In this document: positions 1-21,304 of the stretch, one piece after another | Position numbering within the stretch: the stretch's first letter is position 1 | How the letters are laid out: every line of letters starts with the position of its first letter | Origin: Geitlerinema sp. PCC 7407 | GTDB taxonomy: Bacteria; Cyanobacteriota; Cyanobacteriia; PCC-7407 | Reading direction: 5' to 3' | Assembly: GCF_000317045.1 (NCBI RefSeq) | Contig: NC_019703.1 | Span: 2,964,501-3,028,500 of the forward strand | Length of the DNA stretch: 64,000 bases | Program-made: the position numbers and the translations under genes | Notes under the pieces: model-generated | Told to the model about the DNA's origin: nothing | Databases searched by the model: none | What the model saw: only the letters and a program-made list of their open reading frames with translations

Positions 1-126
1 TCGCTAAAGCTCCGGAACCCGGGTCGGCGATCGCCTTTTTGGTTTTTGGTGGATTGACTGGAGTTTCAGCTCTTCAAAAAGCATCAAAAAAACGCCAAAA
101 TTTCAACTAATTTCGAGATTGCAAAT

Positions 127-158
127 AAAAAGCTCAGGCATTAAATCCTGAGCTTTTT
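127..158. terminator. Bidirectional intrinsic terminator
   Basis: A perfect 12-bp stem (AAAAAGCTCAGG / CCTGAGCTTTTT) with an 8-nt loop, A-rich on the left arm and T-rich on the right, so it can stop transcription from either side. It probably ends a gene lying left of the window. Confidence 0.75.
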
Positions 159-491
159 ATTCTTTATAAATTCATTTGCATTCTAGATTTAATAACTTTT
201 TTGCCAATTCAGTCAATCAAAAATAGAATTTTTCTAAGAGAAATTATTGATTTTTATGGATTAACGAAGTTCGATATTTTCATTTATTCAAGAAAGCATT
301 ATTGAAACTCTCTAAGTTAAATTTGCAACCAAAGAAGCACAAAATCACTAAGCTATCTTTCATTTTTGGCAAAGAACAAAATTAATTAAAATTTGATATC
401 AAAAAACTGCCATTTTGGCCCACAAGCTTTTTAGCGAGTTTCTATAGTATCCCTAGCATGAACTCATTTTTTAAGCTAGGAGTTGTTCATC
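159..491. other. A/T-rich upstream region of the first RTX gene
   Basis: No gene is visible here. The stretch is strongly A/T-rich compared with the coding DNA. It holds a TATAGT-like -10 candidate near 443-448 and ends in the AGGAG ribosome binding site (478-482) of the RTX gene. No clear -35 box at standard spacing was found. Confidence 0.5.
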
Positions 492-1583
492 ATGGCTTTA
501 GTCAGAGGTACTTTTAGCGCAGACTTAATCTCTTTAACCAGTGCATTGGCTTCCACAATAGATGCCGATATTATCTACGCAGGGGAAGGCAATGATACGG
601 TTTTTGGTGCTGGCGGCGACGACTTTATTAAAGGCGACAGCGGTAACGATGAGCTGCGCGGAGAAGAAGGCAATGACCAGATCTTTGGCGATCGCGGCCT
701 AGACACGATCTTTGGCGGGAACGGCGACGACCTCGTCGACGGCGGCAGCGATGCGGACTTGCTTTTCGGGGACGCTGGTCTTGACACACTCCTAGGCGGT
801 TCTGGCAATGACACGCTTCTGGGCGGCTCCGGCAATGATCAACTCCTCGGCAGCATCGGCAACGATGTCTCTGTCGGCGAAACTGGGGATGATGAGCTGA
901 TCGACACCAGCGGCAACAACACCCTTGACGGCGGCCTAGGAAATGACAGCTTGACCGCAGGCGGCGGCATCGACGTCCTTGTCGGCGACGGCGTCTACAT
1001 CCCCGGCACCACATTGTTTCAGGGTGGTAACGACAGTCTTTTTGGCGGCAATGGCAACGACAGCCTATACGGCGGCTATGTTGTCATTAACGCCACGACT
1101 GGCTTGCCTCAGAGCTTTTTGGCAGCGAGCGGTAACGACACCCTTGATGGCAGCGGCGGCAACGATCTGGTGGACGGCCAAGACGGCACCGACGTTTTGA
1201 TCGGCGGCAGCGGCAATGACACAGTTGTGGGGGGACGAGGAGCCGATACTGTCCAAGGAGCCGGGGCTACAGGGGACTTTGAAATTGATCTTCTCTACGG
1301 GGATGTGCCGGGTTCGACCACTGGAGCGGGTGCTGATGTCTTCGTGCTGGGCAACAGCACGACGGTTTTCTACGATGCAGCCGGAACCGGGGATTTTGCG
1401 CTGATTGTGGATTTTCAGGCTGGAAGCGACAAGATTCAGCTCAACGGCAGCAATATGATGGCCTACGGGTTTGGCATCAGCGGCACAGAAACACAAATCT
1501 TCTACAACGGCGATTTGATTGGTCGCGTTTTGAACATCACGCCCACTAATCTACTGAATTCTGGATCTATCGTGTTTGCTTAG
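492..1583 (+). CDS. RTX-type calcium-binding repeat protein
   Basis: This is a 363-residue acidic protein made largely of glycine/aspartate-rich nonapeptide repeats (GGxGxDxxx, for example GGSGNDTLL and GGNGDDLVDG) between about residues 25 and 250. It ends in the hydrophobic C-terminal segment common to secreted RTX proteins. Such repeats bind calcium and fold outside the cell after type I secretion without an N-terminal signal peptide, and none is seen here. The ATG at 492 is chosen because AGGAG at 478-482 lies nine bases upstream; a TTG at 483 would abut that site. An intrinsic terminator follows. The HlyD and ABC exporter genes at 16.6-21.3 kb are likely partners. There is no catalytic domain, so its activity is unknown. 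Confidence 0.85.
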   Translation: MALVRGTFSADLISLTSALASTIDADIIYAGEGNDTVFGAGGDDFIKGDSGNDELRGEEGNDQIFGDRGLDTIFGGNGDDLVDGGSDADLLFGDAGLDTLLGGSGNDTLLGGSGNDQLLGSIGNDVSVGETGDDELIDTSGNNTLDGGLGNDSLTAGGGIDVLVGDGVYIPGTTLFQGGNDSLFGGNGNDSLYGGYVVINATTGLPQSFLAASGNDTLDGSGGNDLVDGQDGTDVLIGGSGNDTVVGGRGADTVQGAGATGDFEIDLLYGDVPGSTTGAGADVFVLGNSTTVFYDAAGTGDFALIVDFQAGSDKIQLNGSNMMAYGFGISGTETQIFYNGDLIGRVLNITPTNLLNSGSIVFA

Positions 1584-1613
1584 GTGGATTGGAGCCGGGT
1601 TTCTACAGCCATG

Positions 1614-1640
1614 ATTCCGGTGTAATGCCGGAATTTTTTA
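1614..1640 (+). terminator. Intrinsic terminator after RTX gene
   Basis: A 7-bp stem (ATTCCGG / CCGGAAT) with a 7-nt loop runs straight into a run of T. It lies 30 bases after the RTX stop codon. Confidence 0.75.
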
Positions 1641-1967
1641 TGTTTACCGAAATGCCAGAGTGGCAACATGGTGCGAGAAATTCTTTTTAAGATTTGCTTA
1701 CGCGTTCAGGGCTGATTGAGAAGCGATCGTCTTTTTCAGGATCTCCCAAAAAACTTCTATTTTTAGAACTTTTGAGGGACTTTAAAGGCGATCGCCCTTT
1801 TTTTTCGCAGTTTTTTAGGATTATCTAACCCGCTTGCCAATCTGTTTTTAGATCCCGGTCAGGTAATCCTTAGTCGTTCTGTGACATTCCCTGAGCCGCC
1901 GAGCGAGTTTTTGCCCCCTGCCGTATCACGTTCACTCATCTGAAATATCCGCGAGGAGTTCACTGTG
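1641..1967 (+). other. Spacer upstream of the double-glycine precursor
   Basis: Noncoding, with HIP1 sites. It holds the AGGAG ribosome binding site at 1954-1958 for the precursor. Its length leaves room for a separate promoter, which fits the terminator just upstream, but I could not pick out convincing -35/-10 boxes. Confidence 0.4.
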
Positions 1968-2288
1968 ATGCACCCTTTTGAATTATTTCCTCAGCAGGCT
2001 TGCCCCGAAGAACTCGACTTTTCTGAAGCCATTTCTGAGGCCGAAGCCGCTCAAGTTGGCGGCGGATTAACCTATTACACGACCCTGGCTTTGGGCGAAG
2101 AGGGGGGCAGTTGCTTCCCAGATCCCATCGACTGGGAACCGCCGAAGCCCACACCTATTTGCCCTGGGCCCGTGAAACCACCGGCCTATCATCCGATCAA
2201 GCCGCCCATTGTGATAGACCCGCCGGAGATGACGACTCTGGCACTGGGCGAGGAAGGCGGCTGCTGGCCCGGTTATGAGCTAGCCTAA
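1968..2288 (+). CDS. Graspetide-like precursor with double-glycine leader
   Basis: A 106-residue small protein. Its first 30 or so residues are acidic and end in QVGGG (residues 29-33), the pattern of a double-glycine leader cut by C39 peptidases. The rest carries two identical TTLALGEEGG blocks (residues 38-47 and 89-98), each followed closely by cysteine, separated by a proline-rich linker. Paired hydroxyl residues (TT) near paired acids (EE) are what ATP-grasp ligases use to form omega-ester rings in microviridin-type peptides, and an ATP-grasp gene lies 85 bases downstream on the other strand. ATG 1968 (AGGAG nine bases upstream) is preferred over GTG 1965. Cross-linking is inferred from motif and context. 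The product could instead be an unmodified bacteriocin-like peptide. Confidence 0.7.
   Translation: MHPFELFPQQACPEELDFSEAISEAEAAQVGGGLTYYTTLALGEEGGSCFPDPIDWEPPKPTPICPGPVKPPAYHPIKPPIVIDPPEMTTLALGEEGGCWPGYELA
2079..2108 (+). repeat. Core-motif repeat 1 (TTLALGEEGG)
   Basis: First coding copy of the ten-residue TTLALGEEGG block in the precursor. It lies just after the double-glycine leader and is preceded by LTYY. The two copies match fully at the protein level but use different synonymous codons, which points to selection on the peptide. Confidence 0.8.
2232..2261 (+). repeat. Core-motif repeat 2 (TTLALGEEGG)
   Basis: Second coding copy of the same ten-residue block, near the C-terminus, followed by CWPG. 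Its codons differ from copy 1 at several third positions. Confidence 0.8.
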
Positions 2289-2323
2289 CGTCCCTTGTTG
2301 AGTCAGCTTTTAAGTCCCGCCTG

Positions 2324-2352
2324 CGGCTTCTCGGTCATCGAGAAGCCGTTTT
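2324..2352 (+). terminator. Intrinsic terminator after precursor gene
   Basis: Perfect 10-bp stem (CGGCTTCTCG / CGAGAAGCCG), 5-nt loop, then TTTTC. It lies between the convergent precursor and ATP-grasp genes, and the T run serves the plus strand. Confidence 0.8.
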
Positions 2353-2373
2353 CTTGGCGGGGGCGGCAGAAAT

Positions 2374-3276
2374 CTAGCGGGTGAGGGTCTCGACGAGGGC
2401 CTGGGTAATGGGGTAGCCGGTCCGCTGCTCAAAAAACAGAAACATGGGGCTGGGATTGGCTTCTAGGAAGACCCAGTCACCGTCGGGGGGCTGGCGCCAG
2501 TCGATGGCGGTCCAGGTGAGGCCGAGGGCGCGGGCGATCGCAACGCACTGGCGCTGAGCCGCCTCGGGCAGGGCAACGGGAATGAGCTCGGCCTGGGCAT
2601 CTTCGCGAAAGTCGAGGGCAGCAGAGCGAATTTCGGCGGCGTATACCGCATCCTCCACGACGTAGGTCCGGAGGTTGGTGCCGGGGATGTAGGTCTGGAG
2701 GGTGACCGGCGCTAGGCCCAGCACGTGCCGCAGTCGCGCCGCGTCGAGGTGCTCAGGGGTCAACTGGCGAGTGTGGGCACCACCGTAGACCGGCTTGAAA
2801 ATCAGGCGATCGCGCCTTTGGGCGAAGGCCAGGACTTCCTGGGGGTCATTGGTGACGAGGGTCTCGGGAATGGGAATGCCCAGGGCGTGGACCCGCTGGA
2901 GTTGGCGGGGTTTCTCTTTGTGGAAGTCGTAGGCCCGCCAGGAGTTGACCCAGCGAGCGGGACAGGCTCTGATCAGCGATCGCAGCAAGCTGGCGGCGTC
3001 CTGTCTCGCCACAGGCTGGAGGGCTGGGTCTAGCGGCGCAATGGCCGGTTCTCCCAAGCTGCGCCAAAAAACGCTGTGAATGTCTCGCAGAGAAAGGCGA
3101 TCGCCCGACTCAAAGCAAAGGGTGCCCTCAGCCGTCTGAGGACACCAAGACAAGCGCAGCCGCGCGGGAAACTGGGTTGTATCGAGATAGTTGACCGATG
3201 CTCCCGCAGCCCGCAGCGCCTGGCCCATGTGGCGGGCGTGGGCTTCTTCCGGGCATCCCAACACCAAAATTTTCAT
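2374..3276 (-). CDS. ATP-grasp ligase, graspetide-maturase type
   Basis: A 300-residue ATP-grasp protein. The N-terminal third (MKILVLGCPEEAHA onward) looks like a pre-ATP-grasp fold. The central part has the lysine strand RLIFKPVYGG, and the end has the Mg-binding motif LEANPSP (E272, N274) followed by FEQRTGYPI. Length and the EANPSP-FEQRTG ending match the MvdC/MvdD-like and related peptide ligases that make omega-ester or amide cross-links in ribosomal peptides. The start (ATG 3276) lies 33 bases after the PpiC-type gene, so the two are probably co-transcribed. The likely substrate is the TTLALGEEGG precursor that converges on it. Substrate and bond type are inferred; RimK-like and other small-molecule ligases are the main alternative. 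Confidence 0.75.
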   Translation of the reverse strand: MKILVLGCPEEAHARHMGQALRAAGASVNYLDTTQFPARLRLSWCPQTAEGTLCFESGDRLSLRDIHSVFWRSLGEPAIAPLDPALQPVARQDAASLLRSLIRACPARWVNSWRAYDFHKEKPRQLQRVHALGIPIPETLVTNDPQEVLAFAQRRDRLIFKPVYGGAHTRQLTPEHLDAARLRHVLGLAPVTLQTYIPGTNLRTYVVEDAVYAAEIRSAALDFREDAQAELIPVALPEAAQRQCVAIARALGLTWTAIDWRQPPDGDWVFLEANPSPMFLFFEQRTGYPITQALVETLTR

Positions 3277-3309
3277 GTTTTACGTTCGAAAAGGGAGTCA
3301 GCGGCGGGC

Positions 3310-4083
3310 TCAGCTTTCGAGGGCGACACCGCTGGCCTCGGGGCGGGGGGTGTGGTGCAGCAGGTAGTTGAGTTCGCCCTTGAGCCATTCCCCAAAGAGG
3401 CGATCGACGATTTCCTTGCGCACCTCGGGCGTGAGCTCTGGCACGATTAGCTCTTCGACCCGCAGCAGATGAAACCCCTGATCAGTTTGGACCGGCCCCG
3501 CAATCTCACCCACGCTCACGCCAAAAATCGCGGCTGCAATATCCGGCTTCAGGCTCCAGCGGTAAATTTTGCCTTCGTAGCCGCACCGGCACCGCCGCGC
3601 CTCATCAATGTCGTAGAGGTGAGCCGCCTCATAAAAACTGATTTCTTCTTCTTCGATTTGATAGAAGATTTCGCGGGCTAGCTCAGCGTAGGGAACGATG
3701 ATCTGATAGAGCATGATGCGCTCGTAGTCGAGGCGATTTTGGGCAAAGTAGGCCTCAGCTTCCGTGTCGTAGAGCGTCTCGGCGAGTTTGCGGGTCAAGA
3801 GGCGATCGCTGATACCAATCTCCCACTCTTCCGGCGTGATCATTTGCTCCGCCAGCCAAGCCAGAGTATCGGCCGCCTTCTCTAGGCGTAGCTCTCGGCG
3901 CAGTCGGTCTGCTTCCTGCTGCACGTCCGTCGGCGAAACAGCCACTCCGCGCTCTTGGGCCGTTTGCAACACTATCTGACGGCAGAGCACCTTCTGATAT
4001 ATCTCCTTGAAACGCATCTCAGTTTTGAGATACTGCAGGATTTCCTCAGCCTCGAGGGAAACGCCCGTCATCATGCCCATCAT
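3310..4083 (-). CDS. PpiC-type peptidyl-prolyl isomerase
   Basis: A 257-residue soluble protein. The N-terminal half is helical and SurA-like. A parvulin-like domain covers roughly residues 120-220, with FYEAAHLYDIDEARR, a GEIAGPVQT loop and the typical DQGFHLLRVEEL end. The ATG at 4083 is chosen because GAGAGGA lies about six bases upstream. That ribosome binding site overlaps the TGA of the upstream RTX gene, which suggests translational coupling. A second, diverged homologue (21301-22053) sits in front of an ABC exporter, so both probably help fold or present secretion substrates. No signal peptide is seen, so action on the cytoplasmic side is likely. The exact client is unknown. Confidence 0.75.
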   Translation of the reverse strand: MMGMMTGVSLEAEEILQYLKTEMRFKEIYQKVLCRQIVLQTAQERGVAVSPTDVQQEADRLRRELRLEKAADTLAWLAEQMITPEEWEIGISDRLLTRKLAETLYDTEAEAYFAQNRLDYERIMLYQIIVPYAELAREIFYQIEEEEISFYEAAHLYDIDEARRCRCGYEGKIYRWSLKPDIAAAIFGVSVGEIAGPVQTDQGFHLLRVEELIVPELTPEVRKEIVDRLFGEWLKGELNYLLHHTPRPEASGVALES

Positions 4084-4093
4084 CTTTTTCCTC

Positions 4094-4954
4094 TCAGACG
4101 CTTGCGATCGCTCCAAAATCAGCCGGCAAACTAACAAAACTGCTCGCGGTCAGCGTGGAAGCACCCGCTGCATCCACGGTTCCAGAGACCACACCCAGAG
4201 CAGCAGACAGACCATCGACAGCCCCAACCGCGACTCGGGTCGCGTCCGCTAGGCCATCTTGATTGGTGTCGAGCACTTCTAGGGACAGCTCCTCAAAGGT
4301 CAACCCCACCAGACCAATGCGATCGCCCTGAGCCGCATCAAAATCTACAATCACATCTCCTGATTCAGCCAGCGCCAAGTCCGATCGCTGCCAGACAAAG
4401 AGATCGGCCCCTGGACCACCCGTGAGCTGATCCTCTCCTAGGCCGCCCACCAGCAGATCAGAACCTTCGCCACCGATCAGCCGATCGGCTCCCGGACCGC
4501 CGCGCAGATCATCGCCCTCAGCCGTTCCCTCCAAGACTTGATCTCCCTCACCTGCTGAGATCGTCAGGCCAGCCTTAGCCGAGTCCAGGGCAAGGTGGAG
4601 CAGCGTCGGCAGCGTTGGCGAGACCGTCGGAGAGGTTTCGGGAGCAGGGGGCTCAGCCGCAGGCAAATCGTCCGGAGGATCGGCAGGGGCCTTCACCTGG
4701 ACCGTGGCGATCGGCAGCTGCGTCGTCGAGGCGATCGCCGTCCCCGAAGCGCTACTAGAAGTTGCCCCAGGCTTAAAAATTTCATCAAATCGGACAACCG
4801 TTCCCAGAGGAGACGAAGCCGTCGATCGGCTCTGGCCCCCTGCTCCTTGGCTATTGACGTAGGCAGTGGAACTGCTCGAAGCGCGCGTCCCACCCGCTTG
4901 AAAAGCATTTGCACTCATTTGCATGGGGAAATCAGAAAGCTTGAAAATCACCAT
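4094..4954 (-). CDS. Short RTX protein with low-complexity N-terminus
   Basis: A 286-residue protein. Residues 1-130 are Ser/Ala/Pro-rich and low in complexity. About residues 145-185 hold four RTX nonapeptides (GGPGADRLI, GGEGSDLLV, GGLGEDQLT, GGPGADLFV), followed by DVIVDFDAAQGDRIGL, the typical post-repeat segment of secreted RTX proteins. It is probably a type I secretion substrate and the first gene of an operon with the PpiC-type and ATP-grasp genes. AGAAGAG lies about nine bases before the ATG at 4954; a GTG at 4957 is the alternative. The N-terminal part contains QAGG and GAGG sites, but nothing proves leader cleavage. Confidence 0.75.
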   Translation of the reverse strand: MVIFKLSDFPMQMSANAFQAGGTRASSSSTAYVNSQGAGGQSRSTASSPLGTVVRFDEIFKPGATSSSASGTAIASTTQLPIATVQVKAPADPPDDLPAAEPPAPETSPTVSPTLPTLLHLALDSAKAGLTISAGEGDQVLEGTAEGDDLRGGPGADRLIGGEGSDLLVGGLGEDQLTGGPGADLFVWQRSDLALAESGDVIVDFDAAQGDRIGLVGLTFEELSLEVLDTNQDGLADATRVAVGAVDGLSAALGVVSGTVDAAGASTLTASSFVSLPADFGAIASV

Positions 4955-5102
4955 CACACATCACTCTTCTAAACAAAGGTTTTCTCAAAGACCATGGCAA
5001 TTAATCTCTCAAAATACACCCGACAAAAAAGCCAATTCAGGCAAAAAAGAAACAAAAAATGCTTTTTAATACACCCTAGTCAATTTAAAAACGCCACAAA
5101 TG

Positions 5103-5152
5103 AATCAATGGAAGTGCCTTGACGTGCCCAATCGCCGCAACTTCCATTGATT
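5103..5152. repeat. Inverted repeat / possible terminator of peptide genes
   Basis: Perfect 13-bp arms (AATCAATGGAAGT / ACTTCCATTGATT) around a 24-nt loop, between the two minus-strand transcription units. It is the best candidate for ending the tandem peptide transcripts, although the longest T run lies on the plus-strand side. Confidence 0.5.
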
Positions 5153-5209
5153 TCATTTTTTTGGTTTAGCCAGTCTCGTGATTCTCTTCAGATCACAGAG
5201 CAGTTTCTA

Positions 5210-5518
5210 TCAGCCGGTCAGGGAGATAGACTGAGCAGAAGAGGTCGCAAAACCAGGCTTGGTGTAGGTGAAGGTCAGCGACTCAGCGTGAGCATCATTG
5301 CCATAGGCGAGAGCTTCTGCTTCTGCAAAGGCGCTGATGCCATCCACATAAGACTCTACACAAAAGTCTTTGTAGACTTCCACATTTTCGTAGACTTCAA
5401 TATCAACTTCCTTGTCAATATTAACGTTGATATTGCTGCCGCCACCACCCCAGTAGGTGCCACCAACGACTTTGATATCCGACACAGCTTCCAAATGGCT
5501 CAGATCAGAAATAAGCAT
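5210..5518 (-). CDS. Double-glycine secreted peptide, copy A
   Basis: A 102-residue precursor. The leader MLISDLSHLEAV...KVVGG (residues 1-20) ends in a double glycine, the cut site of C39 peptidase transporters. The predicted mature part (82 residues) starts TYWGGGG, is acidic and beta-prone (NINVNIDKEVDIEV), has one cysteine in KDFCVES and ends ATSSAQSISLTG. The start ATG 5518 has AGAGGA seven bases upstream; the frame stays open further upstream but that part lacks a site. It is a close paralogue of the gene just upstream. The C39 transporter at 11694-14819 is the likely exporter. No characterised function is recognised; bacteriocin-like or cell-surface roles are both possible. Confidence 0.8.
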   Translation of the reverse strand: MLISDLSHLEAVSDIKVVGGTYWGGGGSNINVNIDKEVDIEVYENVEVYKDFCVESYVDGISAFAEAEALAYGNDAHAESLTFTYTKPGFATSSAQSISLTG

Positions 5519-5605
5519 CGATTTTTCCTCTTCTCTTTTTGACGGTTTAGCTTGAGGTTTCACAAAGCAGAAACCCCGTTCAGTAGTCAAGACAGCAATC
5601 TAAAA

Positions 5606-5914
5606 TCAGCCGGTCAGCGAGATAGATTGGGCCGAAGAAGTTGCAAAGTCGTCTTTGGTGTAGGTGAAGGTCAGTGACTCTGCATGGGCGTCATAGCCGT
5701 AGGCGAGAGCTTCTGCTTCTGCGAAGGCGCTGATGCCATCCACATGAGAATCTACGCAGAAGTCTTTGTAAACATTGACATACTCGTCAACATGGATATC
5801 GACTTCCTTGTCAATGTTAACGTCGATATTGCTGCCGCCACCGCTCCAGTAGGTGCCGCCAACAACTTTGACATCCGACAAAGCTTCCAAGTGATTCAGA
5901 TCAGAAATATTCAT
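5606..5914 (-). CDS. Double-glycine secreted peptide, copy B
   Basis: A 102-residue paralogue of the gene at 5210-5518, of identical length. The leader MNISDLNHLEAL...KVVGG precedes TYWSGGGSNIDVN. The single Cys (KDFCVDS), the DGISAFAEAEALAYG block and the C-terminal ATSSAQSISLTG are all kept. Most differences are conservative and concentrated in the acidic middle (DIHVDEYVNVYK against DIEVYENVEVYK). The start has GAGAGAAG upstream. The two genes are 87 bases apart on the same strand and probably arose by tandem duplication. Confidence 0.8.
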   Translation of the reverse strand: MNISDLNHLEALSDVKVVGGTYWSGGGSNIDVNIDKEVDIHVDEYVNVYKDFCVDSHVDGISAFAEAEALAYGYDAHAESLTFTYTKDDFATSSAQSISLTG

Positions 5915-6077
5915 TGGACTTCTCTCTTCAACGGTTTAGGTTGTGCAACAGCCTTGTTTTAGCTGTTGAATTAAGAATAGAAATAAACCCGTTATTCGTG
6001 TTGCCATTCTGGCACTTTCGACTCTTTTTCAATAACGAAATTTTCAAGATAAAAAGTTCGCCTAGAAAAAGTCCTAA

Positions 6078-6113
6078 AAACAAATGGTTGGGCGATCGCC
6101 CAACCATTTGTTT
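6078..6113 (-). terminator. HIP1-centred palindromic terminator
   Basis: A 36-nt perfect palindrome with GGGCGATCGCCC at its centre. Read on the minus strand it ends in TTTGTTTTTAGG, a good intrinsic terminator for the Tyr-rich precursor gene that stops at 6170. A HIP1 site has been recruited into the hairpin. Confidence 0.7.
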
Positions 6114-6169
6114 CACAGCTTTATTTCAAAACGTGATGCCAAAATGGCGTACTCTCACGACTTTTTTCC

Positions 6170-6523
6170 TCAGGAATAGCGATAATTGTTCGTCGAGTAG
6201 GACAAATTCACAGATGACCTTCGAGAGCTAAAAGTCCCTGTACTTGTATAGAGCGATGTACTCGTCGATGTCCCCGAGGAAGTGCCCATAGGACTGCGAG
6301 CGTAGGCCGTTGCGTCTGCCGTCGCAGTATTGACTGAGTAGCTACCCGTTTTTGTCGCGTTGGTGTAGGTGCTGGTATCCGCAGTCCCGACATAGCCAAG
6401 GCTATAGGCATCAGCCGTTGCATAGCTATAGTTTGCTCCTGCATCGGTATAAGCATAGGTATAGGAGTAGGCACCACCAGAAACCTTACAGTTTCTGCCC
6501 AGCGCTTCAAGATGAAGTGACAT
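6170..6523 (-). pseudogene. Tyr/Ser/Thr-rich double-glycine precursor, 3' part
   Basis: The open frame encodes a leader remnant SLHLEALGRNCKVSGG followed by a mature region rich in Tyr, Ser, Thr and Ala (AYSYTYAYTD, GSYSVNTATADATAYA). The remnant lines up with the leaders of the two nearby paralogues (ISDL-x-HLEAL...KVVGG) but lacks their first half. An IS605-type element begins a few bases upstream. The missing ISDL piece lies on the same strand at the far end of the element (8325-8384). I therefore read this as a precursor gene split by insertion. The local ATG at 6523 has AGGAG only one base away, so residual translation with a shortened leader is possible but probably poor. Confidence 0.65.
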
Positions 6524-6527
6524 ACTC

Positions 6528-7760
6528 CTACACCGATACTGACGTATACGGTGCAGGCTTCTCAGTGACCCCTGGTAACCCATCGGGCGTTTCCTGAGCT
6601 TTATTGACGGAATGCCCTACCGCCAAAGACTTGATATTGATCGCTGCATTGTGGTCACGGTCCAGCGTCAGTCCACACTCAAGACAGGCGTGAATCCTGT
6701 CCTGAAGTGTTTTAGGTACCTTGACTCCGCAGCCAGAGCAGTTCTGAGACGTACCTCTAGGATTCACTGCAACCGTAAGCAATCCAGCTCTTTCAGCCTT
6801 GACTGCCAAGATTTGCAGGAACTGGCCCCAGCCAGCATCATGAGTTGACTTCGCCAGCTTGCTTCTGGCAATGCCTCGAACATTCAGCTTTTCATGAGCA
6901 ACATGCTTTCCCTGGGATAAAAGCTTGCTTGCGACCTTGTGGTGAAAGTCCTTGCGCTGATTCGAGACTTTCAGGTGTGCCTTAGAAACTCGTTTAATCG
7001 CCTTCTTTCGGCGATTAGACCCCTTCTTCTTTCGAGATAAACTCCGCTGCAACCGCTTCAGACGCTTCTCTGCTTTGCGGTAGTGCTGGGGGATGGGTTC
7101 TTCTTGCCCTGCGTCGTCCACCAAAAACGACTTCAAGCCCAGATCAATTCCAGTCGTGTTCTCAGTATTGGGGATGTCGGGAGTAAGGACGGGAACTGAT
7201 GCATCTTCCAAGCTCAGAGTCACATACCAGCCATCGACTTTGTAGCTGACGGTGGCAGTCTTGACCTTGAACCCTTCTGGTAAGGGTCGATGCTGGATCA
7301 GTTTCACCCAACCAATCTTGGGGAGATTGATCTGTTTGCCCCGAATGCAGTCTTGCTTTGCTTGCGGGAAGGTGAAGGAGCGATATCGACCTACTCCCTT
7401 AAACCGAGGTCTACCGCTTCGACTGCCGTTGCAGTCTCCCTTGAGCCAGCGGTCAAAGGTCTTCTTGACCCGGCCAATGCAATCTTGCAGCACTTGAGAA
7501 TAAATCTGCTGGTACTCCGGAAACAGAGCTTTGGAGTTCACCAGGTCTCGTTTCTGGGAGTAGAAGTCGGGATTCTCTCGCAGTTCTGGCAGGTGACAGA
7601 TTAGCGGGCAAGCGTTGATGTCACAGCGGTTTTGCTCGTACCAAGAGAACCGCTCACCGAGACGGTAGTTGTACTGTCTGCGCAAGAGTTCCAGCCATTC
7701 GCTTATCACGGCGACTTGACTGGAGGTTGGACGCAGTCGGTACTGGTAAGCGGTTCTCAC
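6528..7760 (-). CDS. tnpB: TnpB RNA-guided nuclease of IS605
   Basis: A 410-residue TnpB with an N-terminal helix-turn-helix (MRTAYQYRLRPTSSQ), the RuvC-I aspartate in TTGIDLGLKSF, the RuvC-II glutamate in VAHEKLNVRG, a CxxC...CxxC zinc ribbon (CSGCG and CLECG) and the RuvC-III aspartate in LDRDHNAAINI. All three catalytic positions are kept. In characterised relatives the 3' end of tnpB plus the element's right end form an omega-RNA whose guide is the flanking DNA. Here that flank is the split peptide gene. It starts at GTG 7760 and diverges from tnpA across about 50 A/T-rich bases. Confidence 0.9.
   Translation of the reverse strand: MRTAYQYRLRPTSSQVAVISEWLELLRRQYNYRLGERFSWYEQNRCDINACPLICHLPELRENPDFYSQKRDLVNSKALFPEYQQIYSQVLQDCIGRVKKTFDRWLKGDCNGSRSGRPRFKGVGRYRSFTFPQAKQDCIRGKQINLPKIGWVKLIQHRPLPEGFKVKTATVSYKVDGWYVTLSLEDASVPVLTPDIPNTENTTGIDLGLKSFLVDDAGQEEPIPQHYRKAEKRLKRLQRSLSRKKKGSNRRKKAIKRVSKAHLKVSNQRKDFHHKVASKLLSQGKHVAHEKLNVRGIARSKLAKSTHDAGWGQFLQILAVKAERAGLLTVAVNPRGTSQNCSGCGVKVPKTLQDRIHACLECGLTLDRDHNAAINIKSLAVGHSVNKAQETPDGLPGVTEKPAPYTSVSV
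6531..6553. repeat. IS right-end hairpin
   Basis: CACCGATAC / GTATACGGTG arms around TGAC with one bulged base. This is the imperfect hairpin expected just inside an IS200/IS605 end, and it overlaps the last codons of tnpB. Confidence 0.6.
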
Positions 7761-7811
7761 TTGAATGCTTTAATTAGTGATACTTTTTAATTGTACACCA
7801 ATTAAAGGGTC

Positions 7812-8231
7812 ATGGCCTGGATGAAAAATGATTTCTTCTCTAGAGGTCGCTCTGTATCGGACTTAAAGGCTCACTTGATTCTGACAACCAAGTATCGAAA
7901 AAAGCTGTTCACCAAGGAGATGTTGGAGCGACTGCATGAGATCTTCGAGGATCTTCTAGGGCGCTGGGACTGTCGAGTGATTGAGTTTAATGGGGAAGAA
8001 AATCACGTTCATTTGCTGTTTCAGTACCATCCCAGCTTGGAGCTGAGTAAGTTGGTGAACAACCTGAAAACGGTGACGAGTCGGAGGTTGCGCTCTGAGT
8101 TTGAGGAGCGGGTTTCTGAGTTTTATACCAAAGATGCGTTGTGGAATGGCTCCTATTTCATTGCATCCTGTGGGGGCGTTACGGTCTCGACTCTCAAGCG
8201 ATACATTGAGGAGCAAGACTCTCCGGACTGA
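7812..8231 (+). CDS. tnpA: IS200/IS605 TnpA, Y1 transposase
   Basis: A 139-residue HUH-type transposase. The HUH metal motif is in NHVHLLFQY. The catalytic tyrosine is in the C-terminal helix TLKRYIEEQ, and the domain begins with the usual DLKAHLILTTKYRKK strand. The length is normal for the family. It starts at ATG 7812 with AAAGGG upstream and diverges from tnpB. It excises and inserts the element as single-stranded DNA. Confidence 0.92.
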   Translation: MAWMKNDFFSRGRSVSDLKAHLILTTKYRKKLFTKEMLERLHEIFEDLLGRWDCRVIEFNGEENHVHLLFQYHPSLELSKLVNNLKTVTSRRLRSEFEERVSEFYTKDALWNGSYFIASCGGVTVSTLKRYIEEQDSPD

Positions 8232-8244
8232 AGCGAAGGAGATG

Positions 8245-8307
8245 GTTTATGGCGGTGCTGGTCGCCTCTCGCGTCAAACATGGTTCACCGACCGCTCCGC
8301 CATAAAC
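8245..8307. repeat. IS left-end hairpin
   Basis: Perfect 11-bp arms GTTTATGGCGG / CCGCCATAAAC separated by about 40 bases that can themselves fold, 13-14 bases after the tnpA stop. It fits the subterminal hairpin recognised by TnpA. Confidence 0.6.
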
Positions 8308-8324
8308 GCGCCTTCATCTCACGC

Positions 8325-8384
8325 CAAATCAGAGATTATGGACGTGAGGCTTCTGGCTGAACTAGCTAAATCTTGGATCAACAT
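8325..8384 (-). pseudogene. Leader 5' fragment of the split precursor
   Basis: Twenty sense codons on the minus strand, starting with ATG at 8384 (MLIQDLASS...) and ending ...IISDL at the presumed IS border. After about one more codon the paralogous leaders continue HLEAL, which is exactly what is found at the other border (6514 downward). Joining the two borders gives ISDL-L-HLEALGRN...KVSGG. The N-terminus before ISDL is longer than in the paralogues, and the ribosome binding site is weak (AAAGAG about 13 bases upstream), so the true start is uncertain. Confidence 0.5.
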
Positions 8385-8738
8385 GGGGTTTGATTGCTCT
8401 TTGAGGTTGGTAATGCAGCTTCCAAAGCAGCGCCCAGACGCTGAATTTTAGAGACATACAGCCACCTGCAAAGCGAATCTAGGCTAAAAGGTGCAGATGG
8501 CCCTGGGAAGGTGGGGAATGAGAAGGCAAGAGGGACTAATTTTGGCGAAATCCATTGAGAACTACAATGGATAAAGTCATGTCGATTCGACAAAAAAATC
8601 CTATGGAATCCTGTTATCGTTCGTCTGCCATGTTGGCAGTTTTAAACCCATTTTTATATAGAAATAGATTTAATGAAGTTTCAGCTAGCAATCAGAGAAA
8701 CATATTGAATATTTTTAGATGTTTTAGATCTCATAATT
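8385..8738. other. A/T-rich spacer between split precursor and HetP terminator
   Basis: No convincing gene. On the minus strand this is the presumed promoter region of the precursor gene before it was split. I did not find clear promoter boxes. Confidence 0.4.
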
Positions 8739-8772
8739 AAAACCCCTCTTTTGACTTTAAAGAGGGGTTTTA
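8739..8772. terminator. Intrinsic terminator downstream of HetP-like gene
   Basis: Near-perfect 13-bp arms (AAAACCCCTCTTT / AAAGAGGGGTTTT) with A and T tracts on both sides, so it works in either direction. It lies about 95 bases past the HetP-like stop on the minus strand. Confidence 0.75.
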
Positions 8773-8868
8773 AAGGCTTTGTGGCTTAATGGTTATTTTG
8801 CTGGGCGATCGCCCGCTCAAGGGACTCAGCTGCCCGACAGGAAAGATCGCCCAACCAGGGCGGCTGTC

Positions 8869-9261
8869 TCACCCCCAGGGGGTTCGAAACTGATTGCTGC
8901 CGCTGCCCCGCACCGGCAGGCTTTCTCCTTTGACGGAGTCAAGGTAGGCAAGGTCGGAAATCGTGCTTGCTTTGCGAGGCTGGGCGTCGCTATTTCTGGG
9001 GTCTCTGGAGCGATCGCCCGCAGATGGAGGCGTGTTGGGGCGATGGGCATGGGGCCGGTTTTCTTTCATGAGCCGGTTGTAGGTCCGGTAGGGGATGTAG
9101 TGCAGCGGGTTATAGCCTGCGAAGCGCAAGATTAGGACGCAAGCCCAAGAATATTTGCCGGACAAAATCGCCTCAACCACTTGATTGAATTGCTCGGGTG
9201 TCATAACCTTTTGTCTTTTTGAATTCAGGCTGGAATTTGCAGCAGAAAACGGCTGATGCAT
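8869..9261 (-). CDS. HetP-family protein with leader-like C-terminus
   Basis: A 130-residue protein. Residues about 20-68 carry the HetP-family core: [19 protein letters not shown], then [20 protein letters not shown]. In heterocyst-forming species HetP and its paralogues set the timing of commitment to differentiation; relatives also occur in species without heterocysts. A basic, polar linker follows, then [13 protein letters not shown]...VRGSG, which resembles the ISDLxxLxxV...GG leaders of the peptides 3 kb away. Start ATG 9261 has GGAGAG eight bases upstream; an internal ATG at 9204 just before the core (AAAGG upstream) is an alternative. It lies directly upstream of the presumed bacteriocin-like genes on the same strand. 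Confidence 0.85.
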
Positions 9262-9286
9262 TTCAAACTCTCTCCAAAGAAGGCGG

Positions 9287-11236
9287 TTATCGGGATAGGG
9301 TGTCGCGCTGGAGCTGACGAATCGGATCCAGCAGGATATCGAGAATGCGCCGACGACGAATCACGATGTCAGCCTGGGCCGTTTGGCCCGGCTTAAAGGT
9401 GATGGATCGGCCGCCTTCGATGACGTGGTTGCGATCGAGGGCGACTTTGACTTCGTAAACAGGCCCCATCTGTTCGTCCTGTTTGGTGTCAGGGGACAGG
9501 GCAACCACGTGTCCTGGTACAACGCCGTAGTCTTGGAAGGGGTAGGCGTCAATTTTGACTTTGACGGGCATGCCGATTTTGACGAAGCCCGCTTCTGGGT
9601 TTGGGAGAGCCGCTTGGAGCACCAGGGGAGCGTCACTGGGGGCGATCGCGGCGATCGTCTGTCCCGGTTGCAGCACTTCTCCCGCATGGTCGACGTTGAG
9701 GGACAGCACGACTCCGTCGATCGGAGCGTACACAAAGCGCTGCTTGAGCTTGGTTTGAGCACTGGTGATGAGTCCCTGAGTTTCGGTCATCTTGGCTTTG
9801 ATTTGGGTCAGCTCCACTTGCAGGCTTTCGATGCGCTGTTGGGCCTCGGCCTGGACTGCCTGAGCTTCGGCCTGTTTTTGGCGCAGCAGGGCCTCTAGGC
9901 GCTCGGCCTCCGAAAGCGATCGCGCCAAGTCTCCCTGACTCTGAGTAATGCTGCGGCGGCGATCGCGCAGGGACTGCTCTAGATCAAAGAGGTGCTCTCG
10001 ACTGATGGCCCCGTCATCCGCGAGGGGCTGTAAGCGCTCAAGGCGATCGCCCTGGGCGGCCGCATCACCCTTGAGCTGTTCGAGCAGCCGACGAAATGTC
10101 TCTGCGCTGTTTCGGGCCTCTAGCAGCGACGTTTCCTGAGCCTGCAAGTCCGCCGCCGACATTTGAGCTCGGCTTTGGGCCTCGGACTCCATTTGTTCGC
10201 GCAGCCCTTGCTTTTGCAGTAGCTCCGTTTGGTAGGCCATCAGCGTCTGCTGGAGCCGCGCCAGGTCTTGCTGAGCGAGCTCTGTATCGAGCTCGACGAT
10301 GATTTCGCCTTTTTTGACGCTCTGGCCTTCTTGAACGGCAAGCCGCGCGATGCGTCCCATTTCGATGGCGTGGAGCTTGTAGGCTTCGCCCTCTGGAATC
10401 AGGCGCCCCCGGCCTTTCCCCGACTCTTCGATGTGGCCAAACCAGGCCCACGTGCCAAAGACCACAAAAAACATCACGCCACCCAGCATCATGCGACTGG
10501 GAAGGGAGGCGGGGGGCTGGTTCAGAACATTTTGCAGCGCTCCTGACCAGTGCTCCTCTGGCGGGGCAGGAGGGGCGGGCCGCTCAGGCGGTGGGGCGAT
10601 CGCGGGCGGGCGGACGACGGGGCGACTGGGTGCACTGGGTATCGCCACCCCACCGACGATGGCCGCAGCCGAAACGGGGGTGATTTCCAGGGGCAAATCG
10701 AGAGGAACCGCAGGAGAGGGCGTCAGGGGCGATCGCCCCAAGTCTCCCTCAGCCGGTCGGGAGACCAGCGGCCCGAGCCAGCGCCGACGCCAGCGCTGGC
10801 CCAGATACGCAAGTCCCAGCAGCGACAGCAGCGACCCGCCCCCGATCCAAAGATCCGGGCGATCCGTCAGCGCAGAGGCCACCGTGGCGCCCAGCTGAGC
10901 CACGATCGCAGGAGCCGCGGCGCGCTCTGGGACCGCCGCCTTTGGCGACTCGGGCGCACACTCTGCCGGCACCGGCAGCTGAATGGTCTGATCGATTTGC
11001 AGCGATTCTGGGTCCAGGCCGGGGTTGGCCGCCAGGACTGCTGCTACGGGTAGGGCGCGATCGCGGGCGATCGCATCAAAGGTGTCCCCTGGCTGAACCT
11101 GGTAAGTCAGCTGCTCACAGCCAGAGGCTGCGGTTTGGCCGGGGCGCGGGGTTTCAGCAAGGGCTGGCCCCGCCCCCAAAAGCAGCAAAAGTACAGAACA
11201 GGACACCGATCGGTTCTGAATTAACAAAAAACCCAT
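9287..11236 (-). CDS. LysM-HlyD fusion, type I secretion adaptor
   Basis: A 649-residue protein with an unusual order. A signal peptide or anchor (residues 1-27, ending ALA) comes first. A LysM domain (about 44-88, [16 protein letters not shown]...QTIQLP) follows, then a hydrophobic segment (about 131-147), a Pro-rich linker and a second membrane segment (about 249-266). The HlyD/periplasmic adaptor part comes last: a biotinyl-lipoyl half-motif ([24 protein letters not shown]), a long coiled coil (about 315-500) and a beta-barrel end ([13 protein letters not shown]...). HlyD adaptors bridge an ABC exporter and an outer-membrane channel; LysM binds peptidoglycan. The C39 transporter gene lies upstream on the same strand, 457 bases away. 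The LysM part may anchor the adaptor to the thick cyanobacterial wall. Confidence 0.85.
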
Positions 11237-11693
11237 GACCTAATTTCGTCCCTCAAAGACTGGATCACGACCGTTGCCGGGTGTGGAACACACGTCCGAG
11301 CGCTCAACCCTGAATCCCAATCTCCACCCGCCCAGAATGCCTCGTCTCAGCTGAGCGATCTTGAAATCTTGTTGGGGCCTGGGGCTCGGGGAAACAACTC
11401 ATCCAGGGAACTTGCATCGTGTCAACAGCAGGAGTCATCCCAAAAAGCATCATCTTTACGCGTTTTTACTGAGCCATCTCAGGAGTCTTTGCAAAAAACC
11501 GTAAATACACGCAAGACAGGCCACTTCGATGCTAGCGGCCTTGGGCTAGCCGCACTGCCAAACTGGCAAATTTATTCTCTAAATTTCGTGAAGAAGGTAG
11601 AATTTTGCGCATTTTGGCGGGCGATCGCGATTTTTGATTGGCTAGCGAAACCATGCATCATGCCAAAGCCAGCAGTTGGCCTTCGAGATAGGG
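11237..11693. other. Spacer between exporter and LysM-HlyD genes
   Basis: No supportable gene. It could hold a promoter for the LysM-HlyD gene, so the two export genes may not share one transcript. No strong hairpin with a T run was seen. Confidence 0.4.
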
Positions 11694-14600
11694 CTAGAGG
11701 TTGAGCTGCTGCTGGGCCAGGTGGTAGTAGAGACCGCGAGCCTCCATCAGGGTTTCGTGGGTGCCCTGCTCTACCAGAACCCCGCGATCGAGCACCAGGA
11801 TCAGGTCCGCGTTGCGGACCGTCGAGAGGCGGTGGGCAATGATAAACGCCGTGCGATCGCGGCTGATCTGGGCCAAGTTTTGCTGGAAGCGGCGCTCTGA
11901 CTCCGTGTCCAGCGAGCTCGTCGCCTCATCCAAAATCAAAATGCGCGGATTGCCTAGAAGGGCGCGGGCGATCGCAACGCGCTGGCGCTGGCCCCCCGAG
12001 AGGGTCGAGCCTCGCTCACCCACCTTGGTGTTGTAGCCCATGGGCAGCGCCTGAATGAAGCTGTGGGCCTCCGCCAGCTTCGCCACTTCGATGGCCTCCT
12101 CCAGATGGAAGTCTGGCCGGTGCAGAGTAATGTTTTCCAAGATCGTGCCCGAAAACAGGAAGCACTCCTGGGGCACCACCCCCATCTGCGATCGCAGAGA
12201 CTGGGGCGACACGTGGCGAATGTCGTGACCATCAATCCAGATGCGGCCACTGGTCGGCGCATACAGGCTCTGGAGCAGCTTCACCAGGGTGCTTTTGCCC
12301 GAGCCGCTGCGACCGACGATCGCCACGGTTTGGCCCGCCGCCACCTCCAGCGACAGATTTTGCAGCGTGTTTTGCTCCTCTTCCTCGGAGTAGCGGAAGG
12401 TCACATTTTCCAAAGTGACGGCCCCCCGGATCGGCGGCATGACCAGCATGGGCCGCTGGGGGTGCTCCTCCGGCTCCGTCTCGAAAATGTCGTCGAGACG
12501 CTCCACCGAAATCAGCACCTCTTGCAGCTCGTCCCACAGCTGAGCCAGGGCCAAAATCGGCCGAATCACGTAGCCAATCATCATGTTGAAAGCCACAAAC
12601 TGACCAATGGACAGCTGATCTTGGATCACCAGCGTCGCCCCGTACCACAGCAGCGCCGTGCCCCCAAGGCTGTTGATCAAGCCACTCACCAGCTGGAGCC
12701 CAATGGCCAGATTTTGCGCCTTGAAGCGGACATTGATTTGGTTCGTTAGGGTGTCTTCCCAGCGCCAGCGCAGCTCTCGCTCCACCGACGCTCCTTTGAT
12801 CGTCGAGACCCCCGTGATCAGCTCCACCAGAGAAGAGTTCTGCTCTGCTGAGGCATTAAACACCTCCCGCGACATCTGGCGCAGAAAGGGCGTCGACCCC
12901 AAGGTGATCAGCACGATGGGCGGAATCAGACACAAAGCCAGCAGGGTCAGCTGCCAGTTGTAATAGAACATCAACCCCAGATAGACAAAGCCCGTCAGGA
13001 AGTCGAGCCACGCCAGCACCACTTGCCCGATCAAGAAGCGCTGGATTTTTTGGTTCTCCTGCACCCGGGTCAGAATGTCGCCCACCCGCCGCGACTCAAA
13101 AAACTTGAGAGGCAGCAGGAGCGTATGGCTGATAAAGCCGCTGATCAAGGTGAGGTCGAGGCGATTGGAAAAGTAGCTCAGCAGGTACTGGCGCACCGCC
13201 GAAAGCATCATGCTCCAGATGCCAAAGATAAACAGGCCAATCACAAAGACCTGGAGGGTGACCTGACTTTTTTGGACGACGACTTGGTCGAGAATGATCT
13301 GGGTAAACAGGGGGGAGATGATGCCAAAAATCTGGATCAGCAGGGACACTGCGAGAATCTGGGCGGCTAGTCCCCGATAGGGCCACAGGGCGTGGAGGTA
13401 TCGCCACAGGGAGGGCTGCGCCACCTCGACCTCTCGGAAGCGATCGCCCGGCGCCAAGAGCAGCGCGTAGCCGGTCCAGTTTTCTAGAAAGGCTTGGCGG
13501 GAGAGGGTTTGGCGTCCCAGGGCTGGGTCGGCGATCACGACGCGATCGCGCCGCACCTGATACACCACCACATAGTGAATGCCCTGCCAGTGAGCGATCC
13601 AGGGGTTGGCCTGCTCTGCGAGTTTGCTGAGGCTGGCGCGCACCGGCTGCGCCTGAAATCCCAGACTTTCGGCGGCCTTGGCCAGAGCGCTGAGGGAGGC
13701 CCCCGCCGTGCCGACATTGGCGCGATCGCGCAGGATGTGGATCGGCACCCGCTTGCCCCAGTAGCGACTGATCATCGCCAGGCAAGTGACGCCGCAGTCG
13801 GAGGAACTCTGCTGCTGGATAAAGGGATAGCGCTCCAGCCAGTCCAGCAGGTAGCGGCGCAGCGGCTTGGGAAAGAGGACCGGGGAAGCCGATGGGGCCG
13901 GCTCGGGCGTCGCGGGGGCGCTAGCGGACGCTGCCTCTCGGGTCGGGCGATCGCTCACTGGGGCCAGGCGGGGCGCTTTGCGGTGACCGTTGGTCGTGTG
14001 GCCGTTGTGATTGGCGGCGTCCCCGTGGGGATGCACCATGGCCTGGTAGGTGCTCCAGTGCTCGATCGCTAAGTACTCAATCTGTAGCTCTGTTTGGGCT
14101 GTCCAGGCCGCCGGGACCGCATCCGGATAGCCCCAGGTGCTACCCGGGCTGGGCGGCAAGCTTTCGGGGTCGTGGCTCTGGACCTGGCCCTGGCGCAGCC
14201 AGCAGCGCCCCAGGTCGGTCGGCGTCTCCTGGGCGATCGTGGCTCCGGCGGGCACCGTTTTCTGGATCATCAGCGAAGCCAGAGCGTCTAGGCGGTGGCT
14301 CGGCAGCGATCGCAGCTCTGTCATGGTCTTGAAGAAGATCAGGCGCTGATGGTGCAGCAGGCGATCGCTCACCGCGCTGCCCAGGGCAGGGAGGCGAGCC
14401 GACCACGCTTGCAGCGCGGCTTGGGGCAGGCGAGCCACCAGTCCATTGCTCGCGGCGATCGCCTGACACCGGCCCGCCTCTGGCGCCAACGCTCCCGCCC
14501 CAAACACCTCCCCCGGCTCCAGGGTCAGCACCGAAACCCAGCGCTCCCCCGAGGCCGGGGCCAAGAGCCTCACCCGCCCCCGGCACACTATATACAGACC

Positions 14601-14819
14601 GGCCCAGTCTCCCGCCGCCTCAGAACCCGACGGCTCCGAGGCGGCCACGACCTCCCCCAGAGAAACGCTCGTGTAGCTCACGCTCTCTGCCAGCGATCGC
14701 AGAATCTCTGGCGCTTCAGCGGTCACATTTAGGCCCTGAAAAACCAGATCTTCATCACTTTTAGAGACCTCAATTGGATCTGTAGAAGATTGGCTTAAAA
14801 GTCTGGATGAAGCATTCAT
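11694..14819 (-). CDS. C39-peptidase ABC exporter with cNMP-type domains
   Basis: A 1041-residue peptidase-containing ABC transporter. The first ~270 residues hold one or two cyclic-nucleotide-binding-like modules (LEPGEVFGAGALAPE). The C39 domain (about 335-460) has its catalytic triad intact: C342 in SSSDCGVTCLAM, H415 in GIHYVVVY and D431 in ADPALG. Then come the six-helix transmembrane domain (about 480-760) and the ATPase with Walker A GRSGSGKSTL, signature LSGGQRQRVAIARA, Walker B ILILDEATSSLD and IAHRLST. This family removes double-glycine leaders while exporting the peptide. The three ISDL-type precursors and perhaps the TTLALGEEGG precursor are the obvious substrates. The next gene downstream is the LysM-HlyD adaptor. 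Confidence 0.93.
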   Translation of the reverse strand: MNASSRLLSQSSTDPIEVSKSDEDLVFQGLNVTAEAPEILRSLAESVSYTSVSLGEVVAASEPSGSEAAGDWAGLYIVCRGRVRLLAPASGERWVSVLTLEPGEVFGAGALAPEAGRCQAIAASNGLVARLPQAALQAWSARLPALGSAVSDRLLHHQRLIFFKTMTELRSLPSHRLDALASLMIQKTVPAGATIAQETPTDLGRCWLRQGQVQSHDPESLPPSPGSTWGYPDAVPAAWTAQTELQIEYLAIEHWSTYQAMVHPHGDAANHNGHTTNGHRKAPRLAPVSDRPTREAASASAPATPEPAPSASPVLFPKPLRRYLLDWLERYPFIQQQSSSDCGVTCLAMISRYWGKRVPIHILRDRANVGTAGASLSALAKAAESLGFQAQPVRASLSKLAEQANPWIAHWQGIHYVVVYQVRRDRVVIADPALGRQTLSRQAFLENWTGYALLLAPGDRFREVEVAQPSLWRYLHALWPYRGLAAQILAVSLLIQIFGIISPLFTQIILDQVVVQKSQVTLQVFVIGLFIFGIWSMMLSAVRQYLLSYFSNRLDLTLISGFISHTLLLPLKFFESRRVGDILTRVQENQKIQRFLIGQVVLAWLDFLTGFVYLGLMFYYNWQLTLLALCLIPPIVLITLGSTPFLRQMSREVFNASAEQNSSLVELITGVSTIKGASVERELRWRWEDTLTNQINVRFKAQNLAIGLQLVSGLINSLGGTALLWYGATLVIQDQLSIGQFVAFNMMIGYVIRPILALAQLWDELQEVLISVERLDDIFETEPEEHPQRPMLVMPPIRGAVTLENVTFRYSEEEEQNTLQNLSLEVAAGQTVAIVGRSGSGKSTLVKLLQSLYAPTSGRIWIDGHDIRHVSPQSLRSQMGVVPQECFLFSGTILENITLHRPDFHLEEAIEVAKLAEAHSFIQALPMGYNTKVGERGSTLSGGQRQRVAIARALLGNPRILILDEATSSLDTESERRFQQNLAQISRDRTAFIIAHRLSTVRNADLILVLDRGVLVEQGTHETLMEARGLYYHLAQQQLNL

Positions 14820-18167: not shown

Positions 18168-18241
18168 AGCTTCAAAACCTGCTGATTTAAGGACGTAGGC
18201 GGGCAAGCGATCGGCGGTAGATTCTTGAACCCTGGGCCTTA

Positions 18242-21200: not shown

Positions 21201-21304
21201 AGCTGCCCTTGGCGGGACAGCTGCTCCAGGGCTGCCGGCGGTAGCAAATTGAAGGGTTCAACGCTGGCGAGAAACGATTGAACCGAAGTTGTGGTGTAGA
21301 TCAT
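18242..21304 (-). CDS. HlyB-type ABC exporter with degenerate C39-like domain
   Basis: A 1020-residue exporter. The N-terminus has a cyclic-nucleotide-binding-like domain (about 15-150, ending near DKGAVLGDASLVRG). About residues 300-430 form a C39-like domain (YAPLACFQMLAKHLGMPF) that lacks the D-C-G catalytic motif, as in HlyB, where the domain only docks substrates. Six transmembrane helices (about 455-730) and an ATPase follow: Walker A GQSGSGKSTL, signature LSGGQRQRLAIART, Walker B LLIMDEATSALD, ITHRLST. Its ATG overlaps the TGA of the upstream PpiC-type gene (ATGA), so the two are translationally coupled. It probably exports the RTX proteins encoded at 0.5-5 kb, unprocessed. Confidence 0.92.
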   Translation of the reverse strand: MIYTTTSVQSFLASVEPFNLLPPAALEQLSRQGQLLRYRMGQAIVIRDKMPAQISILFEGQARMLGYDPRTQLPVTLRLLDKGAVLGDASLVRGVPCETAIASRETICLTFSVQDFWTLLDQHPLLSQAFHDRASLIEIFDLLGAELMRRADGAANLKDLTQALQTQTVVHHWPAGPRTLADLNPERLWLVSGGGAIADRPAGSRLEPGLQDTLQVTGTLPARILEMPDFASVPPPGTLPIGAAEDLAVADAPVSAVAAMEGETSLESPTDNGIPYAPDRPPEAENLPYVIDAPVGRAKKYPYVRGRGAVYAPLACFQMLAKHLGMPFRRDLIERVLKSQVERYGKEPNLDQAVSLQLYGAIAEMMGLSANLVSVPAGSFGRLPTPALILWQGSVAILYGATSREVILGIPEEGVRRRRLSDFLRSWGKEGPVLLLSSTRQTPQRKFGLGWFLPSVNRYRRVLIEVFIASFFVQLFALANPLMIQVIIDKVIIQNSIDTLQILGIFLVIIAIFEALLSSLRTYLFVDTTNRIDLSLGTEIIDHLLRLPLKYFEQRPVGELSTRVGELERIRQFLTGTALTVVLDSIFSVIYILVMLIYSPLLTAVALSTIPLFVGLAVIASPIIRRQLRERAERNAETQSYLVEVVGGIQTVKAQNIELRSRWQWQDRYARYVSAGFKTVLTSTTANSLTHFLNQISGLLVLWVGAYLVLKGELTLGQLIAFRIIAGYVTTPLLRLAQLWQNFQELALSIERLSDILDTPQEADETDRTNIPMPYIKGAVSYDNVSFRFGKTGPSQLNNITLDFPSGKFVGIVGQSGSGKSTLMKLLPRLYAPNNGRIMIDGYDISKVELYSLRRQIGIVPQDTLLFDASVQENIALTNPEATSEEIIEAAKIAVAHEFVMGLPNGYNTRVGERGSSLSGGQRQRLAIARTILQNPRLLIMDEATSALDYNTERQVCLNLAEAFRGRTVFFITHRLSTIRNADLILMMDQGSVVEQGTHEELMELRGRYFCLYQQQEAQL

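Follow-up and report, generated by a model that had tools for sequence, protein, structure and literature searches.

A probable two-core, plesiocin-like graspetide locus in Geitlerinema sp. PCC 7407

Background

A window of 64,000 nucleotides from Geitlerinema sp. PCC 7407 (assembly GCF_000317045.1, contig NC_019703.1, positions 2,964,501 to 3,028,500) carries a short gene with two TTLALGEEGG blocks next to a gene for an ATP-grasp protein. The arrangement raises the question of whether the two genes make a graspetide and, if they do, whether the product is one chain or two peptides. Repeated TTxxxxEE cores are reportedly, after Lee et al. 2020, the motif of the group 2 graspetides (plesiocin).

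Results

The gene at 2374..3276 (minus strand) encodes an ATP-grasp protein of 300 residues with an MvdD-type pre-ATP-grasp domain, a DFR motif and a LEAN metal-ligand motif. An ATP-grasp gene with an EANPSP...FEQRTG end had been noticed beside the precursor in a sequence-only reading of the locus, and this end was confirmed here. The Pfam MvdD pre-ATP-grasp domain scored above its cut-off. The best NCBIfam matches were three RiPP-maturase models, whose curated cut-offs were not reached (TIGR04187, 152 against 350 bits; TIGR04184, 104 against 475; TIGR04185, 100 against 425). The motifs IFKP (159-162), LDFR (221-224) and LEAN (271-274) are conserved in 33 aligned sequences; DFR, reported to be critical for graspetide synthetase activity (PMC13097080), is invariant among them and present in PsnB too. 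No second copy of the enzyme was found in the genome, a single contig of 4.68 Mb.

The nearest solved protein by sequence in the PDB was the plesiocin synthetase PsnB (7DRM, E 1.8e-35; PMC10452190). The enzyme is 33% identical to PsnB and 26-27% identical to the Mdn enzymes. A Foldseek search with its AlphaFold model (pLDDT 91.9) placed PsnB at ranks 1-4 (E 1.3e-27), then MdnC, PruB, AMdnB, MdnB and CdnC, and then RimK, and in VIA-align these synthetases again led the list, with Z values of 26.8-29.4 against 23.5 for RimK. A profile of the enzyme's relatives gave 156 bits for PsnB, 133 for MdnC, 38 for RimK and 12-14 for GshB. In the enzyme tree RimK and GshB fell on one side of a branch with 100/99 support, and PsnB joined near the root of the synthetases, though it is the nearest solved enzyme by sequence and fold.

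These comparisons bear on an alternative in which the repeat protein is unrelated and the ATP-grasp enzyme works on a small molecule or, like RimK, attaches glutamates. Weak matches to RimK and MptN profiles speak for it, but sequence, profile and fold comparisons all favour PsnB and the Mdn enzymes by a wide margin, and precursor and enzyme occur together in dozens of genomes; it was rejected as having hardly any probability. A grouping of the ligase with small-molecule ATP-grasp enzymes would, by the terms of the sequence-only reading, have spoken against that reading; neither the tree nor the profile scores nor the fold ranking gave such a grouping, RimK, GshB and Ddl all being separate from the ligase. 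The enzyme is a graspetide synthetase and not a member of a primary-metabolism ATP-grasp family.

The precursor gene (1965..2288, plus strand) may start at GTG 1965 or at ATG 1968, either being possible from the ORF list and the family alignment, and would encode 107 or 106 residues, respectively. The GTG lies three bases 5' of the ATG and gives MMHPF..., a slightly better fit to the family consensus MxHPF; an M-x-HPF start is found in most cyanobacterial relatives. The ORF at 1968-2288 (+) translates as MHPFELFPQQACPEELDFSEAISEAEAAQVGGGLTYYTTLALGEEGGSCFPDPIDWEPPKPTPICPGPVKPPAYHPIKPPIVIDPPEMTTLALGEEGGCWPGYELA. The translation bore out two features claimed earlier, a QVGGG leader end and two identical TTLALGEEGG blocks with different codons.

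The invariant precursor features in the family alignment are M-x-HPF, a GG leader end and TTxxxxEEGG. The aligned leader, MHPF...QVGGG (1968..2066, +), ends in the V-x-GG register common to the relatives and would be cut by a C39 peptidase after the third Gly, with Val at -4 as in those relatives. About half of graspetide precursors have a Phhx(1,2)h leader motif (PMC8939145); in the leaders of this family the invariant HPF mostly precedes an acidic residue plus Leu, without two hydrophobic residues after Pro. The precursor had no match in Pfam and one chance match in NCBIfam, and phmmer searches of the PDB with the window precursor, a made-up repeat or the family profile gave chance matches only or none. 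Neither a second copy in the genome nor plasmid-borne relatives were found, a consensus scan detected no sigma-70-type promoter upstream of the gene, and no structured RNA was found in positions 1-12000 of the window.

Core 1 (2079..2108, +) and core 2 (2232..2261, +) both read TTLALGEEGG, with the TT pairs as putative donors and the EE pairs as putative acceptors. The ten residues are identical and their codons differ at six nucleotides, all synonymous. Random placement of six substitutions kept the peptide in 16 of 100,000 trials, and shuffling the residues of the precursor produced an exact 10-mer repeat in none of 20,000. The repeat is therefore old and has been kept by selection, and is not the result of recent duplication or chance; the cores are under purifying selection. 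A codon-repeat artefact was also considered as the source of the repeat and was ruled out, again because all six differences are synonymous.

The blocks are joined by a Cys-containing linker (2109..2231, +) that is Pro-rich, as had been claimed, with 15 prolines among the 43 residues that separate the first EE from the second TT; similar C/P-rich linkers occur in loci L007, L010, L014 and L053. A Cys had been said to follow each block, which holds for this precursor (GGSC after core 1, GGC after core 2) but is not a family trait, a Cys lying three residues or fewer from the core in 14 of 107 family cores.

The sequence-only reading had left the choice between two ring systems on one chain and two peptides. 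The second form would have the same chemistry with cleavage within or next to the Pro-rich linker, a reading to which the separate Thr/Glu pairs of each core and the length of the 43-residue spacer lend some weight. However, the EEGG that ends each core would put Glu at -4, which is at odds with a C39 site, and the relatives carry one to six cores, often with short spacers, as in multivalent plesiocin. One two-headed chain is favoured because the only V-x-G-G site is the leader end, and two peptides are quite improbable. The predicted single chain, LTYYTT...YELA, has 73 residues and a linear mass of 7827.83 Da, and a calculated monoisotopic mass of 7755.78 Da after four dehydrations with Cys reduced.

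Eighty related loci were fetched from cyanobacteria, Alteromonadaceae and Oxalobacteraceae. Most of the loci are cyanobacterial, with enzymes about 50-62% identical to that of the window; those of the two other families are 41-44% identical. An ORF with an MxHPF start was present in 57 of the 80 loci, in most cases a precursor next to the enzyme; among the other loci, several are truncated contigs or hold related precursors that lack HPF. The 60 unique precursors each carry one to six TTxxxxEE cores, except for eleven with variant cores, and their spacers are often short. Counting all TT pairs past the leader gave 132 TT-starting cores, of which 120 have EE exactly four residues further on, the plesiocin-type spacing. 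The position next to TT is variable (L, Y, M, Q or K), while Ala, Gly, EE and GG are conserved. The enzymes of the Alteromonadaceae relatives matched at E 1e-84 to 1e-85; two of these loci, L064 and L065, have enzymes 42-43% identical and single TMAIGEEGG cores. The earlier view that the locus likely encodes a graspetide is therefore supported both by the family and fold of the enzyme and by a pairing repeated in dozens of homologous loci.

Several precursors depart from the common pattern. In Rhizonema and Brasilonema (L005, L011, L019, L021) the gap between TT and EE is 11-12 residues instead of four, which suggests that a homologous enzyme may form larger rings. Precursors of the Calothrix/Iningainema type (L029, L032, L036, L060, L063), located upstream of the synthetase, start with M-x-Y-[VI]-HPFQ[ML]ELH and have about six cores and no double-glycine site, implying another protease or no cleavage. 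A CISAPCPGSE-type block lies between cores in L006, L012, L013, L016, L020, L022, L058, L075, L077 and L081, which belong to several cyanobacterial genera, and its two Cys may form a disulfide loop.

In Okeania, and partly in Trichodesmium, several TTxAxGEEGG cores occur in proteins of about 400-490 residues adjoining the synthetase. One of them (L042:5987-7258) has about ten cores, similar proteins are found in L034, L041, L044, L045 and L047, and that of L046 is partial. These proteins have a C-terminal tail like that of secreted RTX proteins, no GG leader end and no Pfam match. Cores within such larger proteins with a secretion-like tail are the most unusual item encountered, and lie outside the window.

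The precursor and synthetase genes of the window are convergent, with a strong intrinsic terminator (2323..2349; 12-pair stem and T run) between them. Among 67 relatives the precursor ORF is upstream of the enzyme and co-directional in 60, downstream and co-directional in five and opposed in two (L007, L014). The convergent order, earlier called unusual, is indeed so, 65 of the 67 being co-directional; it is rare but not unique, as L007 and L014 share it.

A PpiC/SurA-like protein (3310..4083, minus strand) is a possible partner; its gene shares the synthetase's strand and lies immediately upstream, with a gap of 33 nt. An RTX-repeat protein (4094..4930, minus strand) is the first gene of this RTX-PpiC-synthetase run, whose order recurs in L007, L010, L008, L024 and L031. 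In L010 and L031 the RTX, PpiC, precursor and enzyme genes follow one another on a single strand; the window and L007 have the RTX, PpiC and enzyme genes in that order with the precursor flipped behind them.

The PpiC gene allows a reading in which its product is an obligatory partner, as in rosaritide, and the rings have a single-ring or otherwise non-plesiocin connectivity. Rosaritide formation requires the TIGR04500 protein MirC (PMC13097080), the PpiC protein of the window is a TIGR04500 homologue (1e-18), and ten other related loci also keep a PpiC-like gene near the enzyme. On the other hand, most of the 80 loci have none, and the TIGR04500 score is 67.7 bits, below the curated cut-off of 180. 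MirC is reported to lack similarity to the PPIase domain, its C-domain included (PMC13097080), whereas the window protein keeps a Pfam Rotamase domain (41.6 bits; cut-off 21.7). A second PpiC accompanies a second export cassette in the window, so that the PpiC protein beside the synthetase may serve export. An obligatory PpiC partner with such connectivity is thus a doubtful reading.

That second cassette (16584-22086, minus strand) consists of HlyD, an ABC protein that resembles HlyB and carries a degenerate C39-like domain, and the second PpiC; it is probably for RTX proteins.

A candidate leader peptidase and exporter, with cNMP-binding, peptidase C39 and ABC parts, is encoded at 11694..14819 (minus strand), about 8.4 kb beyond the synthetase. 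It matched Pfam Peptidase_C39 at 4e-41, with the domain at about residues 330-460, has the catalytic DCG motif and has close relatives near the synthetase in L008 and L014. An HlyD/LysM membrane-fusion protein (9287..11236, minus strand), with close relatives in L010 and L014, is a candidate subunit. The neighbourhood therefore has both a GG leader end (VGGG) and a C39 exporter; the exporter is a candidate for the precursor by proximity only, because several other GG-leader peptides adjoin it more closely.

Three short proteins of 102-117 residues with leader ends KVVGG and KVSGG are encoded on the minus strand at 5210-5521, 5606-5914 and 6170-6523. The first two are 85% identical and have relatives near the same gene set in L007, L008 and L010. 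None of the three matched Pfam or NCBIfam; the C39 exporter probably carries them as further cargo. An IS200/IS605-like pair (6528-8231; TnpB-like on the minus and TnpA-like on the plus strand) lies between these small peptides and the HlyD/C39 exporter genes and abuts the start of the 6170-6523 gene.

Discussion

Taken as a whole, the locus is very probably explained by a plesiocin-type (group 2) graspetide with two bicyclic heads, C39 export and a role as a serine-protease inhibitor. By analogy with its homologues, the ATP-grasp enzyme would bind the MxHPF leader and use ATP to phosphorylate the side chains of the Glu residues in each TTLALGEE core, which the two Thr hydroxyls would then attack. 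Each core would become a hairpin with two nested Thr-Glu esters, so that the whole chain would gain four esters and lose four waters (-72 Da). The ABC exporter with its C39 peptidase, together with the HlyD protein, would cut after VGGG and export one 73-residue chain, in which two bicyclic heads would stand on the Pro-rich spacer and which, outside the cell, would most likely act as a bivalent serine-protease inhibitor. Several observations stand against this explanation: precursor and enzyme are in separate, convergent transcription units, the enzyme scores below the curated TIGR04184, TIGR04185 and TIGR04187 cut-offs, the C39 exporter has other GG-leader peptides closer by, and a single dehydration is all that was seen for the group 2 product Gra-5.

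The locus offers a precursor of plesiocin-like type that is clean and testable, with two cores and a complete cyanobacterial genome around it, and the analysis shows that many such loci form a large family spread over cyanobacteria and two families of proteobacteria. The effects of multivalency and spacer rigidity on protease inhibition could be learned from it, as could the occurrence of PpiC-type partners outside group 21. A more far-reaching reading is a cyanobacterial plesiocin-like branch that extends beyond small peptides, with two heads locked by esters and held on a rigid Pro/Cys spacer, a PpiC partner and an RTX operon in the window, and in Okeania many-fold cores in secreted, ester cross-linked extracellular proteins; we consider it unlikely at present.

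Among known systems, microviridin (MdnB-MdnC, AMdnC) shares the ATP-grasp fold with the MvdD pre-ATP-grasp domain and the GG leader, and AMdnA has several cores, as does the window precursor. Microviridin differs in its cage-like rings including a lactam, its two ligases and its PFFARFL leader. Rosaritide (MirA/MirB/MirC, group 21; PMC13097080) likewise has a synthetase beside a C39-type exporter and a PpiC protein related to TIGR04500, but its core pattern is another one, with three Ser/Thr-Asp lactones, and its enzyme belongs to TIGR04187. Gra-5 is a group 2 product of Glaciecola sp. KUL10 for which only one dehydration was seen in E. coli (PMC9576775), so that bicyclization of both cores here may be incomplete. 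The Alteromonadaceae relatives of its host, L064 and L065, strengthen the link to group 2, since they have homologous enzymes and TMAIGEEGG cores.

Plesiocin itself (PsnA2/PsnB of Plesiocystis pacifica, group 2) has a single ATP-grasp enzyme with the DFR motif and, as here, several cores of the TTxxxxEE type per chain. It has two esters per repeat, the cross-links being adjacent to each other (PMC12291112), in a hairpin connectivity, and its inhibition of serine proteases rises with the number of cyclized motifs (PMC13097080). Plesiocin has four cores and a short linker (GDPSAG, copied in PMC12291112), whereas the window precursor has two cores and a long Pro-rich, Cys-containing spacer. The window also differs in its MHPF leader, its convergent gene order and the PpiC and RTX proteins in line with the synthetase. 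The flipped precursor, seen in two relatives as well, the PpiC gene in the synthetase operon and the long linker are modest local variations, and the locus very probably adds a member to the known group 2, plesiocin-like class rather than a new kind of system.
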